A stretch of 46,875 nucleotides of DNA, from contig MEQQ01000140.1 of assembly GCA_001770285.1 (NCBI GenBank), positions 4,767 to 51,641 of the forward strand. Direction: 5' to 3'. The stretch's first letter is position 1, and each line of letters starts with the position of its first letter. Of this stretch, positions 6,801-42,583 are shown piece by piece. The position numbers and the translations under genes are program-made. Under the pieces are notes generated by a model. It searched no databases, had not been told where the DNA came from, and saw only the letters and a program-made list of their open reading frames with translations. Source of the DNA: Betaproteobacteria bacterium RBG_16_66_20 (GTDB taxonomy: Bacteria; Pseudomonadota; Gammaproteobacteria; Burkholderiales; SG8-39).

Positions 6801-9413
6801 GAGGACCGGATACTGCTGCAGGCGGTCGCACGCGCCGTATTCACCGACAGCCAGGGAACCCTCAAGGATCAGGTCAAGCGGCACCCCCCGGGCGAACCGG
6901 CCATCCCGCGCTTCGCCGCGACCCGTGTGCGCGGCGCCGCACCGGCACAGGAGCGCGAAACGCCGTCGCGCGATCTGGTCCTTGACAACGGACTCGGCGG
7001 TTTCACCCCCGACGGGCGCGAGTACGTGATCACGACAACCCCCGGGCAGGCAACCCCCGCGCCCTGGGTGAACGTGCTGGCCAATCCGCACTTCGGATGC
7101 GTGATCTCCGATAGCGGAGCAGCCTATACCTGGCATCAGAACGCCCACGAGTTCCGCCTCACCCCCTGGCACAACGACTCCGTCGGCGATGCCAGCGGCG
7201 AGGCCTATTACCTGCGCGACGAAGAAAGCGGTCACTACTGGTCACCGTCCGCGCTTCCTTGCCGCGGCACGGGCGCTTACGTCAGCCGTCACGGATTCGG
7301 CTACAGCGTGTTCGAGCACAGCGAGGACGGCATCGAAACCGAACTCACGGTCTACGTGGCCCACGACCTGCCGGTAAAGTTCGCGGTCCTGAAGGTGCGC
7401 AACGCCTCGGGCCGGTCGCGCCGGCTGTCTGCGACCGGCTACGTGGAATGGGTGCTGGGCGCATTGCGGCCGAAATCGAGCATGCACGTAGTCACCGAAA
7501 TCGATCCCAACAGCGGGGCGCTGCTCGCGCGCAACGCCTATAACCCCGAGTTCGCCGAGCAGGTCGCCTTCTTCGACGTCGACGACGTGACCCGCACCAT
7601 CAGCGGCGACCGCACCGAGTTCATCGGGCGCAACGGCACGCTCGCCAATCCGGCCGCGCTGGCGCGGGCACGGCTTTCGGGCAAGGTGGGCGCGGCCATG
7701 GACCCCTGCGCCGCGATCCAGGTCCCGTTCGACCTCGCCGACGGATCGTCGCGCGAGATCATCTTCCGCATGGGCGTCGGACGCGGCACCGACGACGCGA
7801 GCCGCCTGGTGCAGCGCCTGCGCAAATCGAGCACCGCCAGCGCGGCGCTCGAAGCGGCAAAGCAGCATTGGAAGCGGGTTCTGGGCGCCGTGCAGATCGA
7901 AACCCCCGACGTATCGCTCAACGTGCTGTGCAATGGCTGGCTGCTCTACCAGACGATGGCCGCCCGGCTCTGGGGCCGCAGCGGCCATTACCAGTCGGGC
8001 GGCGCCTTCGGATTTCGCGATCAGCTGCAGGATGTCATGGCGCTGGTTCATGCCGATGCGCAGCTGGTGCGCGAGCACCTGCTGCTGTGCGCGTCGCGCC
8101 AGTTCCTGGAGGGCGATGTGCAGCATTGGTGGCATCCGCCTTCCGGGCGCGGGGTGCGCACCCGCTGCTCGGACGATTATCTCTGGTTGCCGCTGGCGAC
8201 CTGCCGCTATGTGCTTTGCACCGGGGACCGCGCGGTCCTGAGGGAGCAGGTTCAGTTCCTGGACGGCCGTGCCGTGAATCCCGAGGAGGACTCGTATTAC
8301 GACCTGCCGCTGCGCTCGCTGGAAGCCGCGAGCCTGTACCAGCACTGCGTGCGGGCGATACTCATGGGGCTGAGATTCGGCGCGCACGGACTGCCGCTGA
8401 TGGGGTCGGGCGACTGGAACGACGGCATGAACCTGGTGGGCGCGCAGGGCAAGGGCGAGAGCGTGTGGCTCGCCTTTTTCCTGCACGACGTCCTGACGCA
8501 GTTCGCCCCTATCGCGCGCGGCGAAAACGATGCGGCCTTCGCCGATCGCTGTGAGGCTGAAGCGGCCCGGCTGCGCGGGAAAATCGACCAGCATGGCTGG
8601 GACGGCGAGTGGTATCGCCGCGCCTACTTCGACAACGGCATGCCGCTCGGCTCGTCGGGCAACGCCGAATGCCGGATCGATTCGATTGCGCAAAGCTGGT
8701 CGGTGCTGTCCGGAGCGGGCGCCCCCGAGCGTTCGCGGCAGGCGATGGAGGCGCTGGATCGGCGCCTGGTGCGCCGGGACCACGCGCTGGTCCAGCTATT
8801 GGATCCGCCGTTCGACACCTCCGACCTTGATCCGGGCTATATCCGCGGCTACGTGCCCGGCGTGCGGGAGAACGGCGGGCAGTACACGCATGCGGCGATC
8901 TGGGCGGCAATGGCATTTGCCGCGCTGGGCGAGACTGCGCGGGCCTGGGAACTGCTCGGCATGATCAATCCATTGCACCACGGCGAGTCGCCCGAGAGGA
9001 CCGCCGTCTACAAGGTGGAACCCTACGTCGTCGCGGCCGACGTCTATGCAGTCGCGCCGCATACCGGCCGCGGCGGCTGGACCTGGTACACGGGCTCCGC
9101 CGGCTGGCTGTACCGCTTGATCATGGAATCGCTGCTGGGATTGAGATTGACGGCGGACCGGCTGCAATTCGCGCCTTGCCTGCCGGCCGACTGGCAGGGA
9201 TTCCAGCTGCACTACCGCTACCGGGAAACCCTCTACCACATCACGGTCCGCCAAGTCTCCGACGACAACGGGATCGCCGTCAGCGTGGACGGCGTAGTGC
9301 AGTCGGAGCCTGCGATACCGCTCGCCGATGATCGCCTCGACCATCAGGTGGAAGTGACCGTGCAGAAGCAGACTATTCCGAATGTAGTTCGACCCCGAAG
9401 ACGCGCTTCTTGA
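825..9413 (+). CDS. ndvB: Cyclic beta-1,2-glucan synthase, NdvB/ChvB-like (glycosyltransferase domain plus GH94-type phosphorylase domain)
   Basis: About 2860-aa ORF with membrane segments. Glycosyltransferase motifs: [48 protein letters not shown]. Two carbohydrate-binding/GH94-like regions: [16 protein letters not shown]...[16 protein letters not shown] and [15 protein letters not shown]. The ORF is open from a TTG at 753; ATG at 825 ([17 protein letters not shown]) looks the better start. Confidence 0.92.
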
Positions 9414-11403
9414 GCTCGGCGAGCTGGTCGCGCGCCTGCGCCGCCTTTTCGAATTCGAGGTTCCTGGCGCAGTCCAGCATCTGCTTCTCCAGCGCGCGGA
9501 TCTCGCGCGCGAGCTGCTTCTCGCTCATCGCCTCGTAGCGCGCGCCGGCCTGCGCCGCCTTCAGCTCCTGCCGCGCCCCGTCGGCGTCGTAGACACCGTC
9601 GATCAGGTCCTTGATGCGCTTCTGCACGCCGATCGGCGTGATGTTGTGCTTCGCGTTGTAGGCGATCTGCTTGTTGCGCCGCCGGTCGGTCTCGGCGATG
9701 GCGCGCTTCATGGAATCCGTCATCCGGTCGGCGTACAGGATCGCGGCGCCGTTGATATGGCGCGCCGCGCGGCCGACGGTCTGGATCAATGAACGCTCCG
9801 AGCGCAGGAAGCCCTCCTTGTCGGCATCCAGGATCGCCACCAGCGACACCTCGGGCAGGTCCAGGCCCTCCCTGAGCAGGTTGATGCCGACCAGCACGTC
9901 GAATTCGCCGAGCCGCAGGTCGCGGATGATCTCCACCCTTTCCACGGTCTCGATCTCGGAATGCAGGTACCGGACCTTGACGCCGTGCTCGCCGAGGTAA
10001 TCGGTCAGCTGTTCGGCCATGCGCTTGGTCAGGGTGGTGACCAGGACGCGCTCCTTCTTCGCGACCCGCAGGCTGATTTCCGACAGCAGGTCGTCCACCT
10101 GCGTCGCCGCCGGCCGCAGCTGCACCGGCGGATCGATCAGCCCGGTCGGGCGCACCACCTGCTCCACGATCTGCGCGGATTTGCCCGCCTCGTAGTCGGC
10201 CGGCGTCGCCGAGACGAAGATCGTCTGCCGCACCACCGCTTCGAACTCGTCGAAGCGCAGCGGCCGGTTGTCGAGCGCCGAGGGCAGTCGAAAGCCGTAA
10301 TCGACCAGGTTCTCCTTGCGCGAGCGGTCGCCCTTGTACATGCCGCCGAGCTGTCCGATGGTGACGTGGCTCTCGTCGATGATCATCAGCGCGTCGGGCG
10401 CCAGGTAGTCGATCAGCGTCGGCGGCGGCTCGCCCGGCTTGCGTCCGGAGAGGTGGCGCGAATAGTTCTCGATGCCCTTGCAGAAGCCCAGTTCGACCAG
10501 CATTTCGAGGTCGAAGCGCGTGCGCTGCTCGATGCGCTGCGCCTCGACCAGCTTGAGCGCTTTCTGGAAGAAATCGATGCGCTCGCGCAGCTCGAGCTTG
10601 ATCGCCTCGATCGCGCGCAGCGTGGTGGCGCGCGGCGTCACGTAATGGCTCGAGGGATAGACCGTGAAGCGCGCCATCGGGTGCTGCACCCGGCCCGTGA
10701 GCGGATCAAATACTTCCAGTTTTTCCACCGCATCATCGGACAATGAGATTCGAATTGCATGCTCGGCATGCTCGGCCGGGAAGACGTCGATCACGTCGCC
10801 GCGCACCCGGAAAGTGCCGCGGCGGAAGTCGAGCTCGTTGCGGTCGTACTGCATCGCCACCAGCCGCGCGATCACCTCGCGCTGCTGCAATTTCTCGCCT
10901 TGGCGCAGGTGCAGGATCATGCCGTGGTACTCGGAAGGATCGCCGATGCCGTAGATCGCCGACACCGTGGCGACGATCACCACGTCGCGCCGCTCCAGCA
11001 GCGACTTGGTGGCCGACAGGCGCATCTGCTCGATGTGCTCGTTGATCGACGAGTCCTTCTCGATGTAGAGATCGCGCGACGGGACGTAGGCCTCGGGCTG
11101 GTAGTAGTCGTAGTAGGAAACGAAGTACTCGACCGCGTTGTCGGGGAAAAACTCGCGGAATTCCGAATAAAGCTGCGCCGCGAGCGTCTTGTTGGGCGCC
11201 AGCACCAGCGCCGGGCGGCCGAGCCGCGCGATCGCGTTGGCCATGGTGAAGGTCTTGCCCGAGCCGGTCACGCCGAGCAGCGTCTGGAACGCGAGGCCGT
11301 CCCCGATCCCCTCGACGATCTTGGCGATCGCCTCCGGCTGATCGCCCGCCGGCGGATACGGCTGGTGCAGTTTGAACGGGCTATTGGGGAAAGCGAGATC
11401 CAC
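9373..11403 (-). CDS. uvrB: Excinuclease ABC subunit B
   Basis: [24 protein letters not shown]...[15 protein letters not shown]...[39 protein letters not shown]...[34 protein letters not shown] motif near the C-terminus. GTG start at 11403 chosen from the conserved N-terminus; the upstream ORF extension is rejected. Confidence 0.96.
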
Positions 11404-11411
11404 GGGTAAAC

Positions 11412-11426
11412 TATTGCAGCGCAATA
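11412..11426. promoter_or_regulatory. Perfect inverted repeat TATTGC-AGC-GCAATA between divergent uvrB and the aminotransferase gene
   Basis: Direct reading; 6-bp perfect arms, 3-nt spacer, centred in a 45-bp divergent intergenic region. Confidence 0.45.
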
Positions 11427-11448
11427 ACCAACATTCCAGTCTAGCAGA

Positions 11449-12666
11449 ATGAACGCACCGCACGCACCCTCCCCGCTCGCCGCGGTCGATATGGCGCCCA
11501 AGGACCCGATCCTTGGCGTCACCGAGGCGTACGTCGCCGACCAGAACCCGAAAAAGGTCAATCTCGGCGTCGGCGTCTATACCGACGACAACGGCAAGGT
11601 GCCGCTGCTCGAGTGCGTGCGCCGCGCCGAGGACAGCCGCGTCAGGAGCGGCGCGCCCAAGTCTTACCTGCCCATCGACGGCATTGCCGCTTATGACAAA
11701 GCTGTCCGGGAACTCGTTTTCGGTTCTTCTTGTAGTGCTTTGAATGAAAACCGGGTCGTAACCATTCAGGCCCTGGGCGGCACCGGCGGCCTGAAGATCG
11801 GCGCCGACTTCCTCAAGCAGATCAGTCCCGCCGCGACGGTCTGGATCAGCGAGCCGAGTTGGGAGAACCATCGCGCCCTGTTCGAAGGCGCGGGTTTCGC
11901 GGTCAGGGAATACCCGTACTACGACCCGAAGACGCACGGCCTGAACTTCGAAGGCATGCTGGGCGGGCTGAAAAAGCTGCCGGCGGGTGCGATCGCGGTG
12001 CTGCATTCCTGCTGCCACAACCCTACCGGCGTCGACCTGACCGAGGACCAGTGGAAGCAGGTGCTGGAAGTCGTCCGGGCGCGCGCGATCGTGCCGTTCC
12101 TCGACCTCGCCTACCAGGGCTTTGCCGAGGGCGCCGACGCCGACGCCTACGCCCCGCGCCTGTTCGCGCAAGCGACGCAGCCCGTGTTCCTGTCGAGTTC
12201 CTTCTCCAAGTCCTTCTCGCTCTACGGCGAGCGCGTCGGCGCCTTCAGCCTGGTCGCCGGCAGCAGCGACGAAGCCGCGCGCGTCCTCTCGCACCTCAAG
12301 CGGATCGTGCGCGCCAACTACTCCAACCCGCCGACGCACGGCAGCGACATCGTCGCGCGGGTGCTCACGAACCCGGAACTGCGCGCGCTCTGGGATCGGG
12401 AACTGGGCGCGATGCGGGACCGCATCAAGACGATGCGCAAGGCCCTCGTCGACGGCATCCATGCGCGCGTCGCCGGCGCCGACTTTTCCTTCGTCATGCA
12501 GCAGCGCGGCATGTTCTCCTATTCCGGCCTCACCCGGGAGCAGGTCCTGCGTCTGCGCAGCGAATATTCGATCTACACCATCGAGACCGGGCGCATCTGC
12601 GTCGCCGCGCTGACGACGAAGAACATCGACTACGTCGCCGAGGCCATCGCCCGAGTGCTCAAGTAG
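11449..12666 (+). CDS. Aromatic amino acid / aspartate aminotransferase (class I PLP enzyme)
   Basis: [22 protein letters not shown]...[15 protein letters not shown]...[18 protein letters not shown]...[11 protein letters not shown]...[17 protein letters not shown]; typical TyrB/AspC family. Confidence 0.93.
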
Positions 12667-22566: not shown

Positions 22567-26663
<4,097 letters not shown>

Positions 26664-31154: not shown

Positions 31155-32942
31155 GGCGGCGAGGAACTGCTCGTCCGAGAGCGCCATCACCGCGGCCGAA
31201 CCGCGGGTCACCGTGGCGGCGAGCCCCGGCGCCTGTGTCAGCACGTGGTCGGCGAAGAAACGCGCCGTCGCGATCTTGGCGGCGTAAAAACCCTGATCGC
31301 CTTCCTTTGTTGCCAGTTTCTTTTCCGCAATCAACGCCGCGCGCGCCATCTGCCAGCCGCCGGCGGTGATCCCCATCAGCTTGAGGAACGGCACCGCGCC
31401 CGCGAAGACCGCGTTGGGATCCTTGCTCGCGGTGGCGAGGATGAAATCGACGCTGTCGGAGACTGCCTGCACCGCGGCGGAAACACAGATACGTATAGCT
31501 TGAATATCCGGATTTCCCGAACTGGAAAGTTCCGCATCGAAATTCCTCAAGCCAACAATCCATTCCCTGACGGTCGCACCCGCCTCGCGCGCGATCTTGC
31601 GCCCGACGAGGTCGCCCGCCTGGATGCCGGTGGTTCCCTCGTATATCGTGGTGATGCGCGCGTCGCGCAGGTGCTGCGCGGCGCCGGTCTCCTCGATGAA
31701 CCCCATGCCGCCGTGCACCTGCACGCCGAGCGAGGCGATTTCGATGCCGGTCTCGGTGCTCCAGCCCTTGACCACAGGAATCATCAGGTCGACGAAGGCC
31801 TGGTGTTTCCTTTGCTCTTCCGGATTCTTGGTCCTTAAAGAAAAATCCATCGAGGCCGCCACGACATAGGCGAGCGCGCGCGCCGCCTCGGTCTGCGACT
31901 TCATCAGCATCAGCATGCGGCGCACGTCCGGGTGGCGGATGATCGGGACCGTGTTGCCGCCCTGCACCAGGTCCTTGCCCTGCAGCCGCTCCTTGGCGTA
32001 GGCCAGCGCGCGCTGGAACGCGCGCTCGGCGATCGACACGCCCTCCAGCCCGACGCTGAAGCGCGCCGCGTTCATCATCACGAACATGTACGCGAGGCCC
32101 TTGTTCTCCTCGCCCACGAGGTGGCCGACTGCGTCCTCGAACACCATCACCGCCGTAGGGCTGGCGTGGATGCCGAGCTTGTGCTCGATCGACGCGCATT
32201 TCGCACGGTTGCGTTCGCCGGGCGTGCCGTCGGGTTTGAGCAGGAATTTCGGCACCACGAAAAGCGAAATGCCCTTCACGCCCTCGGGCGCGTCCGGCGT
32301 GCGCGCAAGCACCAGGTGCACGATGTTGTCGGTGAGGTCGTGCTCGCCGTAGGTGATGAAAATCTTCTGCCCGGAGATCAGGTAATGATCCCCCTTGGGC
32401 ACCGCCCGCGTGCGCACCAGCGCGAGGTCCGACCCCGCCTGCGGTTCGGTCAGGTTCATGGTGCCGGTCCAGTGGCCGGCGACCATCTTGTCCAGGTAGG
32501 CCTTCTTCAGCGCGTCCGAACCGCACAGGATCAGCGCGTGAATCGCGCCCTGCGTGAGCAGCGGGCAGAGCGAAAAGGACATGTTGCTCGAGGTGAGCAT
32601 TTCCTCGACTGCGGTGGCAACCAGCTTGGGCAGGCCCTGCCCGCCGAACGCCTCCTCGAACGGCAGCGCGGGCCAGCCTGCCTCCACGTACTGCCGGTAG
32701 GCCTGCTTGAAGCCCTTGGGCGTTGTCACCGCGCCATCGCGCCATTGGGAGCCTTCCTGGTCTCCGGAGTAATTCAGGGGGTCCAGGATCTGCGTGGCGA
32801 ACTTGGATGCTTCTTCCAGGATCGCGTCCACGGTGTCCGGGCTCGCCTCGCCGAATCCCGGCAGCTTCGCGACTTCGGCAAGGCCGGCGAGCTCGTTCAG
32901 CACGAAGCGCATGTCCTTCAAAGGCGCGACATAAGAGCTCAT
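31152..32942 (-). CDS. Acyl-CoA dehydrogenase (about 596 aa, long FadE5/AcdB-like type with C-terminal extension)
   Basis: [20 protein letters not shown]...[74 protein letters not shown]...[39 protein letters not shown]. Confidence 0.95.
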
Positions 32943-37500: not shown

Positions 37501-39215
37501 CGCTGCCAAGCGCGCGCGCGCCGGAGGGCGTGCCCGAATCCCGCGGCCTGAACCTGTTCGAGGCGGACCCCTCCTACCGGGGGCTGCTGGAGCTGCACCT
37601 CGAGCCGAAGCTCTGCGCCCACCTGCTGCCTCATTTCGCGCAGTTAGGCGCGATGGCGGGCGGTGATCTTGATGAATTGGCGTTGGAAGCAGACAAGAAT
37701 CCTCCGGTATTGAACGGCCAAAGGATAGAAAAAAGCCAGGCCTACAAAAAACTGGAGGAAGTCGCCTTCGCCAAATACGGCCTTGCCGCCATGTCGCACC
37801 GGGGCGGCGTGCTCGGCTGGCCGGAGCCGCTGCCGCCCGCGGTCAAATACGCGCTCACCTATGTTTACGTGCAGGCCGAATTCGGCGTCTGCTGCCCTCT
37901 GTCGATGACCGATGCGCTGACGCGCACCATCCGCAAATACGCCGATCCGGCGCTGGTGGCGCGCTATCTGCCCGGGCTGACATCACAGGACCTCGACGCG
38001 TTGACGCAGGGTGCGATGTTCATCACCGAGCAGCAGGCCGGTTCGGACGTTGGACTGGTACAAACGCTTGCAACAAGAGAAAAAGATCATTGGCTGCTGT
38101 CCGGCGACAAATGGTTCTGCTCCAACGTCGATGCCGGTCTGGCCCTGGTCCTCGCGCGCCCCGAGGGTGCGCCCGGCGGAACCGCCGGCCTTTCCCTGTT
38201 TCTGCTGCCGCGCACGCTGCCGGACGGATCGCCCAACCGTTACCGCATCGTGCGCCTCAAGGACAAACTCGGCACGCGCGACATGCCGAGCGGCGAGATC
38301 AAGCTCGAGGGCGCGCTCGCCTGGCTGGTGGGCGACCCGCAGCAGGGCTTCAAACAGATGACCGACATGATCAACATGTCGCGCCTGTCCAACGGCATGC
38401 GTGCTGCCGGCATGATGCGCCGCGCGCTCACCGAGGCCCTGTTCGTCGCACGGCGGCGCATGGCGTTCGGCAAGCCGCTGATCGAGCTGCCGCTGATGCG
38501 CCGGCAGCTGCTCAAGCTGATGCTGCCAGCGGAGGCCGCGCGTTCCGTTCTATTCTTTATTTCAAAGGATTTGGAAAAAGCAGACGCGGGAGATGAGCTC
38601 GCGCGGCGCCGCGTCCGGCTTCTCACGCCGCTCATCAAGTTCCGCGCCTGCCGCGACGCGCGCCGCGTCACCGCAGACGCCATGGAGGTGCGCGGCGGGG
38701 CCGGTTACATCGAGGAATGGTCGGATCCCCGGCTGGTGCGCGACGCGCACCTGGGCTCGATCTGGGAAGGCACCTCCAACATCGTCGCGCTCGACGTGCT
38801 GCGCGCGATCCGGCGCGAGAAATGCCTCGAAGCGCTGCTGCCGGAGCTGGACGAGCGCATCGCGCGCGCGCCGCGCCTGCTCGCCGGGCGCCTGGCCGCA
38901 TCGCTCGACAAGGCCGCGGAGTTTGCGCACGAGACCGCGAGCACGCAAAGCGAGGCCCATGCGCGGCAGGCTGCGACCGGTCTTTACTACGCTTGCGCCG
39001 CGGCCCTGCTTGCCGACGAAGGTACGCGCCTCGGAGAACGCGGCGATGCGCGCCGCCAATTGCTCGCATTCCTCGCCTACGTGCACCGCCTCGCACCGCG
39101 CGATCCTCTGCGGCGCGTCACGACCGGCTTCGAAGCCGAGTTCGCGCAAGCCTTGCTGCCCGAAACGCCCATTGCGCCGGATGCGGCCGAGCGCATTCTG
39201 ACGCGCCTTGCCTGA
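37497..39215 (+). CDS. Acyl-CoA dehydrogenase family protein (AidB/DmdC-like)
   Basis: GAMFITEQQAGSDVGLVQTLATREKDHWLLSGDKWFCSNVDAGLALVLARPEGAPGGTAGLSLFLLPR...VRGGAGYIEEWSDPRLVRDAHLGSIWEGTSNIVALDVLRAIRR. Confidence 0.93.
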   Translation: MTLPSARAPEGVPESRGLNLFEADPSYRGLLELHLEPKLCAHLLPHFAQLGAMAGGDLDELALEADKNPPVLNGQRIEKSQAYKKLEEVAFAKYGLAAMSHRGGVLGWPEPLPPAVKYALTYVYVQAEFGVCCPLSMTDALTRTIRKYADPALVARYLPGLTSQDLDALTQGAMFITEQQAGSDVGLVQTLATREKDHWLLSGDKWFCSNVDAGLALVLARPEGAPGGTAGLSLFLLPRTLPDGSPNRYRIVRLKDKLGTRDMPSGEIKLEGALAWLVGDPQQGFKQMTDMINMSRLSNGMRAAGMMRRALTEALFVARRRMAFGKPLIELPLMRRQLLKLMLPAEAARSVLFFISKDLEKADAGDELARRRVRLLTPLIKFRACRDARRVTADAMEVRGGAGYIEEWSDPRLVRDAHLGSIWEGTSNIVALDVLRAIRREKCLEALLPELDERIARAPRLLAGRLAASLDKAAEFAHETASTQSEAHARQAATGLYYACAAALLADEGTRLGERGDARRQLLAFLAYVHRLAPRDPLRRVTTGFEAEFAQALLPETPIAPDAAERILTRLA

Positions 39216-41434: not shown

Positions 41435-42583
41435 ATGGAGGCCGAAGAGTCCCACGCAGAACTGCGCGACGCCGTCCGCGCGCTCTGCAATACCTTCGAT
41501 TCCGCCTACTGGCAGAAGGTCGACGCGGCGCGCGCCTACCCCGAAGCCTTCGTCGACGCGCTCACCAAGGCGGGCTGGATGTCGGCGCTGATCCCCGAGG
41601 AATACGGCGGCTCCGGCCTGTCGCTCACCGAAGCCTCGGTAATCATGGAAGAGGTCACCCGCACGGGCGGCAATGCCGGCTGCTGCCACGGCCAGATGTA
41701 CAACATGAACACGCTGCTGCGGCACGGCTCGGCCGAGCAGAAGACGAAGTACCTGCCGAGGATCGCCACCGGCGAGCTGCGGCTGCAGTCGATGGGGGTG
41801 ACCGAGCCGACCGCCGGCACCGACACCACCAGCATCAAGACGGTGGCCGTAAGGAAGGGCGACCGCTACGTGGCCAACGGCCAGAAGGTCTGGACCTCGC
41901 GCCTGCAGCACTCCGAGCTCATGATCCTGCTCGCGCGCACCACGCCGATTTCCGAAGTCGCGAAGAAATCCGAAGGGATGTCTATTTTTCTTGTAGAAAC
42001 AAAAAGTAAAGGCTTGGAGATCAAACCCATCCGGAATATGGTGAACCACGAGACCAACGAGGTGTTCATCGACAACCTCGAGATCCCGGCCGAGAACCTG
42101 ATCGGCGAGGAAGGCAAGGGCTTCAGATACATCCTCGACGGCCTGAACGCCGAGCGCATCCTGATCGCCGCCGAGTGCATCGGCGACGGCTACTGGTTCA
42201 TCGAACGCGCCGCCAAGTATTCCAAGGAACGCGTGGTGTTCGGCCGGCCGATCGGCCAGAACCAGGGCATCCAGTTCCCGATCGCCGAGTCGTACATGGA
42301 AATCGAGGCCGCCAACCTGATGCGCTACAAGGCGGCGGCGCTGTTCGACGAAGAAAAGCACTGCGGGGCGGAGGCCAACATGGCCAAGCACCTTTGCGCC
42401 AAGGCCTCCTGGGAAGCGGCCAACGTCTGCATCCAGACCTACGGCGGCTTCGGTTTCGCCGCGGAGTACGACGTGGAGCGCAAATTCCGCGAGTCCCGGC
42501 TCTACCTGGTCGCGCCGATCTCCACCAACCTGATCCTCGCCTACGTCGCCGAGCACGTGCTCGGCCTGCCTAGGTCCTTCTGA
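41435..42583 (+). CDS. Acyl-CoA dehydrogenase family protein
   Basis: LIPEEYGGSGLSLTEASVIMEEVTRTGGNAGCCHGQMYNMNTLLRHGSAEQKTKYLPRIATGELRLQSMGVTEPTAGTDTTSIKTVAVRKGDRYVANGQKVWTSRLQHSELMILLARTT...YGGFGFAAEYDVERKFRESRLYLVAPISTNLILAYVAEHVLGLPRSF. Confidence 0.95.
   Translation: MEAEESHAELRDAVRALCNTFDSAYWQKVDAARAYPEAFVDALTKAGWMSALIPEEYGGSGLSLTEASVIMEEVTRTGGNAGCCHGQMYNMNTLLRHGSAEQKTKYLPRIATGELRLQSMGVTEPTAGTDTTSIKTVAVRKGDRYVANGQKVWTSRLQHSELMILLARTTPISEVAKKSEGMSIFLVETKSKGLEIKPIRNMVNHETNEVFIDNLEIPAENLIGEEGKGFRYILDGLNAERILIAAECIGDGYWFIERAAKYSKERVVFGRPIGQNQGIQFPIAESYMEIEAANLMRYKAAALFDEEKHCGAEANMAKHLCAKASWEAANVCIQTYGGFGFAAEYDVERKFRESRLYLVAPISTNLILAYVAEHVLGLPRSF

Follow-up and report, generated by a model that had tools for sequence, protein, structure and literature searches.

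Why should a gene whose codons mostly end in G or C contain ten consecutive codons that all end in A or T? The window analyzed here, a stretch of 46,875 nucleotides on contig C140 of an uncultured, GC-rich member of the Burkholderiales (genome G000, a draft assembly of 2.94 Mb and 155 contigs with a completeness of 87.7%), carries on its forward strand an acyl-CoA dehydrogenase (ACAD) gene at 41435-42583. This gene encodes 382 amino acids, has a GC content at third codon positions (GC3) of 0.89, and contains the N-terminal, middle, and C-terminal ACAD domains (Pfam PF02771, PF02770, and PF00441). Its codons 183-192 (41981-42010, forward strand) read in frame TCT ATT TTT CTT GTA GAA ACA AAA AGT AAA and encode SIFLVETKSK between GC-ending flanks, exactly as an earlier sequence-only reading had located and translated them. 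This is the second-longest run of A/T-ending third positions (AT3) in the window, the longest being a 14-codon run in kdsA (24709-24750, reverse strand). The same reading took the segment to be a normal strand with a largely synonymous shift. This holds for the SIFLV part (41981-41995), the protein sequence of which is nearly invariant, but not for the KSK part, which belongs to a remodelled and shortened hairpin, ETKSKG (41996-42013), with R-to-K and D-to-E changes. The hairpin is three codons shorter than, for example, the DTRSAIGKG or DLREAIGKG of congeners and other genera that keep these codons, and it aligns gap-free to the solved ACAD 5lnx.

The comparison of ACAD genes covered 13 sampled species of the genus, one genome each, with orthologs from 12 congeners aligned to that of G000. 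Three codons of the beta-hairpin, usually A-I-G, are missing in seven of the 13 species and present in the other six, as they are in all of the aligned homologs from other genera. AT3 at codons 183-192 amounts to 53% in the seven species with the deletion, compared with 7% in the six that keep the codons and 11% in other genera; at the SIFLV codons alone it is 51%, 3%, and 5%, respectively. The seven are not independent observations, because they are related and their branching order is not resolved by the gene trees. Among these seven the A/T-ending state is graded, with 10, 9, 5, 4, 4, 3, and 2 of the ten codons. The patch itself is shared to a varying degree: G004, another species, has 28 of its 30 bases, others have part of it, and six congeners have none. 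One species, G001, carries the deletion with codons that are nearly all GC-ending, reading VDTRSKG where G003 reads VDTRS-AIG-KG, which suggests that the deletion came before the AT shift. Alternatively, the state of G001 may have arisen by decay from an AT-rich one, and parsimony does not decide between gain and decay, because the internal branches among the congeners are short and their gene trees conflict, which gives no resolved species tree.

The patch is not peculiar to the ACAD gene but is one of a genus-wide class of AT islands. The chance model was a simulation in which the probability of AT3 was conditioned on the amino acid and on gene-level bias, and 867 kb of the G000 genome was sampled. 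Runs of at least 10 A/T-ending codons were observed nine times in about 194,000-237,000 codons, compared with 0.00 in the simulation, and with a stricter gene filter there were 28 runs of at least 7 codons compared with 0.23-0.30 simulated. Segment scoring gave 72 segments with a score of at least 14 and 0.0 simulated; some of the top segments from this genome-wide scan lie in wrongly called frames, and the counts therefore rest on filtered gene sets. Rare synonymous codons thus cluster beyond amino-acid-conditioned chance. The sequence-only reading had called the run non-random unless equivalent runs should prove to occur at chance frequency across the genome, and this view is upheld by statistics conditioned on both amino acid and gene, since runs of this kind, common as they are, greatly exceed the chance expectation. 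Its further statement that ACAD paralogs bear patches elsewhere is also accurate, the patches being shorter (8 codons long at 38067, 6 codons long at 31508). As a separate observation, A/T-ending runs of at least 6 codons that fall within 20 codons of a gene start number 16 in G000 and the congener loci, compared with 4 expected. AT enrichment at gene starts is known, and start-site errors are another possible source.

An excess of A/T-ending runs was found in every congener tested. Newly examined congener sequence has 10 runs of at least 7 codons in 83,000 codons, including one of 18 codons in ppsA of G006, whereas 54,000 codons from other genera of the family contain 4 such runs and none of at least 10. 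ACAD loci from many other genera have no run of at least 7 in 49,000 codons, and isolate replicons (Cupriavidus, Paraburkholderia, Burkholderia, Variovorax, Caballeronia, and Paracoccus, with plasmid-borne replicons included) have 4 in 119,000 codons, one of them 10 codons long. AT3 is autocorrelated about twice as strongly in the genus as in these controls. Clusters of rare codons beyond chance have been described in ordinary genes (Clarke and Clark 2008, PMC2565806), and the islands resemble them in that rare synonymous codons are clustered beyond chance in ordinary genes; they differ in being much stronger than in related genera, specifically A/T-ending, and situated beside indels and variable segments. 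Because the other genera and the isolate controls show far fewer runs but not zero, the islands look like an amplified form of this known clustering.

Most islands lie at different places in different congeners. In the window, the kdsA island is private to G000, with 14 of 14 codons A/T-ending and nearly all of them changed in this one genome, in a gene that shares about 83-84% identity with its closest relatives. Other runs are a 7-codon run in pyrG (25260-25280, reverse strand; codons 452-458, LAFSVYG) and the 8-codon run of the AidB-like ACAD paralog (38067-38090, forward strand). A 9-codon run at 12219 lies within an open reading frame of 1029 amino acids (9373-12462, reverse strand) upstream of its UvrB domains, the first domain match being at residue 374, and the part of the frame upstream of these domains, run included, is probably non-coding. 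In G006, the 18-codon run lies in ppsA on the reverse strand (L233, 8284-10713); six of seven congeners are AT-rich at this place, although each has different amino acids there. The ACAD gene has a second, different AT island at codons 298-313 (L028, L034), common to G001 and G007 only, and the nitrite reductase gene nirB (L018, 4152-6674) has three separate islands, one in common with G009, one not, and a third that is not comparable.

Two further features of this neighbourhood were observed. Codons 7-23 of pyrG (24966-26633, reverse strand) have almost frozen synonymous codons, 94-100% identical among G000, G012, G004, G009, G001, and G003, compared with 66-77% at such codons in the rest of the gene among the same six congeners. 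Part of this string, GTT TCC AGT CTT GGA AAG, is kept even in the G008 gene of 94% GC3, and an overlapping signal near the start of pyrG is possible. In addition, kdsA (24118-24969, reverse strand) occurs among the congeners as two types with about 70% protein identity in an otherwise conserved eno-kdsA-pyrG neighbourhood, which suggests that the gene may have been replaced within the genus.

What do the islands have in common? When 15 window genes were aligned to five congeners and AT3 was regressed on indels and variability, 16.9% of the codons in runs of at least 5 proved to have an indel no more than 5 codons away, compared with 2.1% of other codons (about eight times as often). Neighbourhood variability predicts AT3 with a coefficient of 3.07, whereas the coefficient for a site's own variability is 0.43. 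Even in columns where the amino acid never varies, AT3 increases with neighbourhood variability, from 0.12 to 0.20, and it stands at 0.25 close to indels compared with 0.135 away from them. In the ACAD gene, AT3 correlates with neighbourhood variability in the congeners (0.146) but not in other genera (0.017). The association of islands with heterology, both indels and divergence, is what a local loss of GC-biased conversion predicts. Not every divergent window is an island, and windows rich in G000-specific amino acids are not AT-rich in general. Because the effect is regional rather than site-level, selection for accuracy site by site would not give this pattern, whereas a regional process would.

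From these observations we infer, at close to an even chance, that the maintenance of GC-ending codons failed locally around the remodelled segment and let AT-ward mutations accumulate. In this sequence of events, 9 bp would have been lost in frame from the beta-domain hairpin in an ancestor of the seven species, and a GC-favouring process, whether recombination-linked GC-biased conversion, codon selection, or both, would then have become ineffective across about 10 codons there. AT-biased mutation would have piled up, including in neighbouring codons with unchanged amino acids. The GC-favouring process would depend on homologous pairing that heterology interrupts. GC-biased gene conversion has been proposed for bacteria (Lassalle et al. 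2015, PMC4450053) as a force that keeps recombining sequence GC-rich, and its local absence would leave AT-rich stretches. That work compared gene with gene, whereas the scale here is about 10-15 codons inside a gene, where conversion is presumed. A local loss accounts for the regional effect, the association with indels, the graded states, the near-native codons of G001, and the AT-richness of ppsA despite its turnover. A narrower form of the idea, in which pairing is blocked by indels and hypervariable segments, GC-biased conversion is lost over the surrounding 30-45 bp or so, and every remodelled segment thereby acquires a halo of AT-rich sequence, appears doubtful. Indel and variability covariates together lift the expected number of window runs of at least 7 codons to only 0.2, compared with 4 observed, which weighs against local loss in general.

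Short-tract recombination import could also set a short, divergent, AT-rich segment into a conserved gene. The islands would then be tracts of about 30-80 bp copied from an AT-rich homologous gene, for example by uptake of fragmented DNA, and decaying GC-ward at the ordinary rate, which we consider possible but less probable. Several observations that are awkward for local loss fit such imports. The kdsA island, changed privately across 14 codons, is hard to reach by relaxation alone on one short branch. Codon choice in the islands is like that of a long-evolved AT-rich genome (TTA rises from 2 to 25%, AGA from 17 to 37%, and ATA from 21 to 46%), although long AT-biased drift predicts the same, and AT3 in the ACAD deletion species (0.53) also fits ordinary decay from a fully AT ancestor (about 0.6 expected). 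In addition, third bases in islands show no correlation with the native ones, with a transition fraction of 0.47-0.49 in runs of at least 4 versus 0.60 in singletons (p 0.03, 0.008), and G000 departs from the congener consensus in its amino acid at 44% of the codons that belong to runs of at least 7, compared with 10% of GC3 codons. However, a search with two islands in 369 class-level and 399 phylum-level genomes found no donor but just short, chance-like matches, and AT-rich KdsA genes with similar residues exist that do not match at the level of bases. Import should leave sharp edges, whereas the island edges are soft, with AT3 fading over about 10-15 codons on average; the place in ppsA is still AT-rich while its sequence turns over; and G001 bears the deletion with nearly native GC-ending codons as an intermediate. 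Islands common to two species diverge like their flanks, and recent transfer of shared islands between species is not supported. For the ACAD patch we favour local loss of the GC-favouring process over import, and both may operate.

Rare codons may also be selected to slow the ribosome and aid co-translational folding, as rare-codon clusters have been read (PMC2565806), and the patch does sit at a beta-hairpin. This is quite unlikely because the site is not conserved: the patch is missing there in six congeners and in other genera, which rules out location-conserved pausing at the ACAD site, and congener islands elsewhere are mostly unshared. An internal promoter, an RNA structure, a protein-binding site, or another nucleic-acid element is more improbable still. 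The AT-rich composition would be in keeping with such an element, as would a weak match to a terminator on the minus strand (42028-42010), but the patch has no promoter-like site, a fold z-score of 0.00, and no Rfam match, and k-mer enrichment across islands is weak. Single-strand cytosine deamination is ruled out by the many transversions and by the equal rise of A and T at third positions. Chance or an assembly artefact is scarcely credible, since, for all the draft state of the genome, the expected number of such runs is about zero and the patch recurs almost base for base in G004.

Overall, the patch is neither a new gene nor an element but a real footprint of evolution, the cause of which is debated. 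How bacterial genomes stay GC-rich against AT-biased mutation is an open question. Whichever explanation applies, AT islands in genomes of this kind should be tested before they are called regulatory elements or pause sites. If the islands are imports, very short foreign tracts would often enter housekeeping genes. If instead a GC-favouring process fails in small, countable patches beside indels, recombination and selection could be set against each other in site-by-site tests, and, should every remodelled segment indeed be surrounded by AT-rich sequence, past heterology inside genes could be read off from GC3 as from a map.
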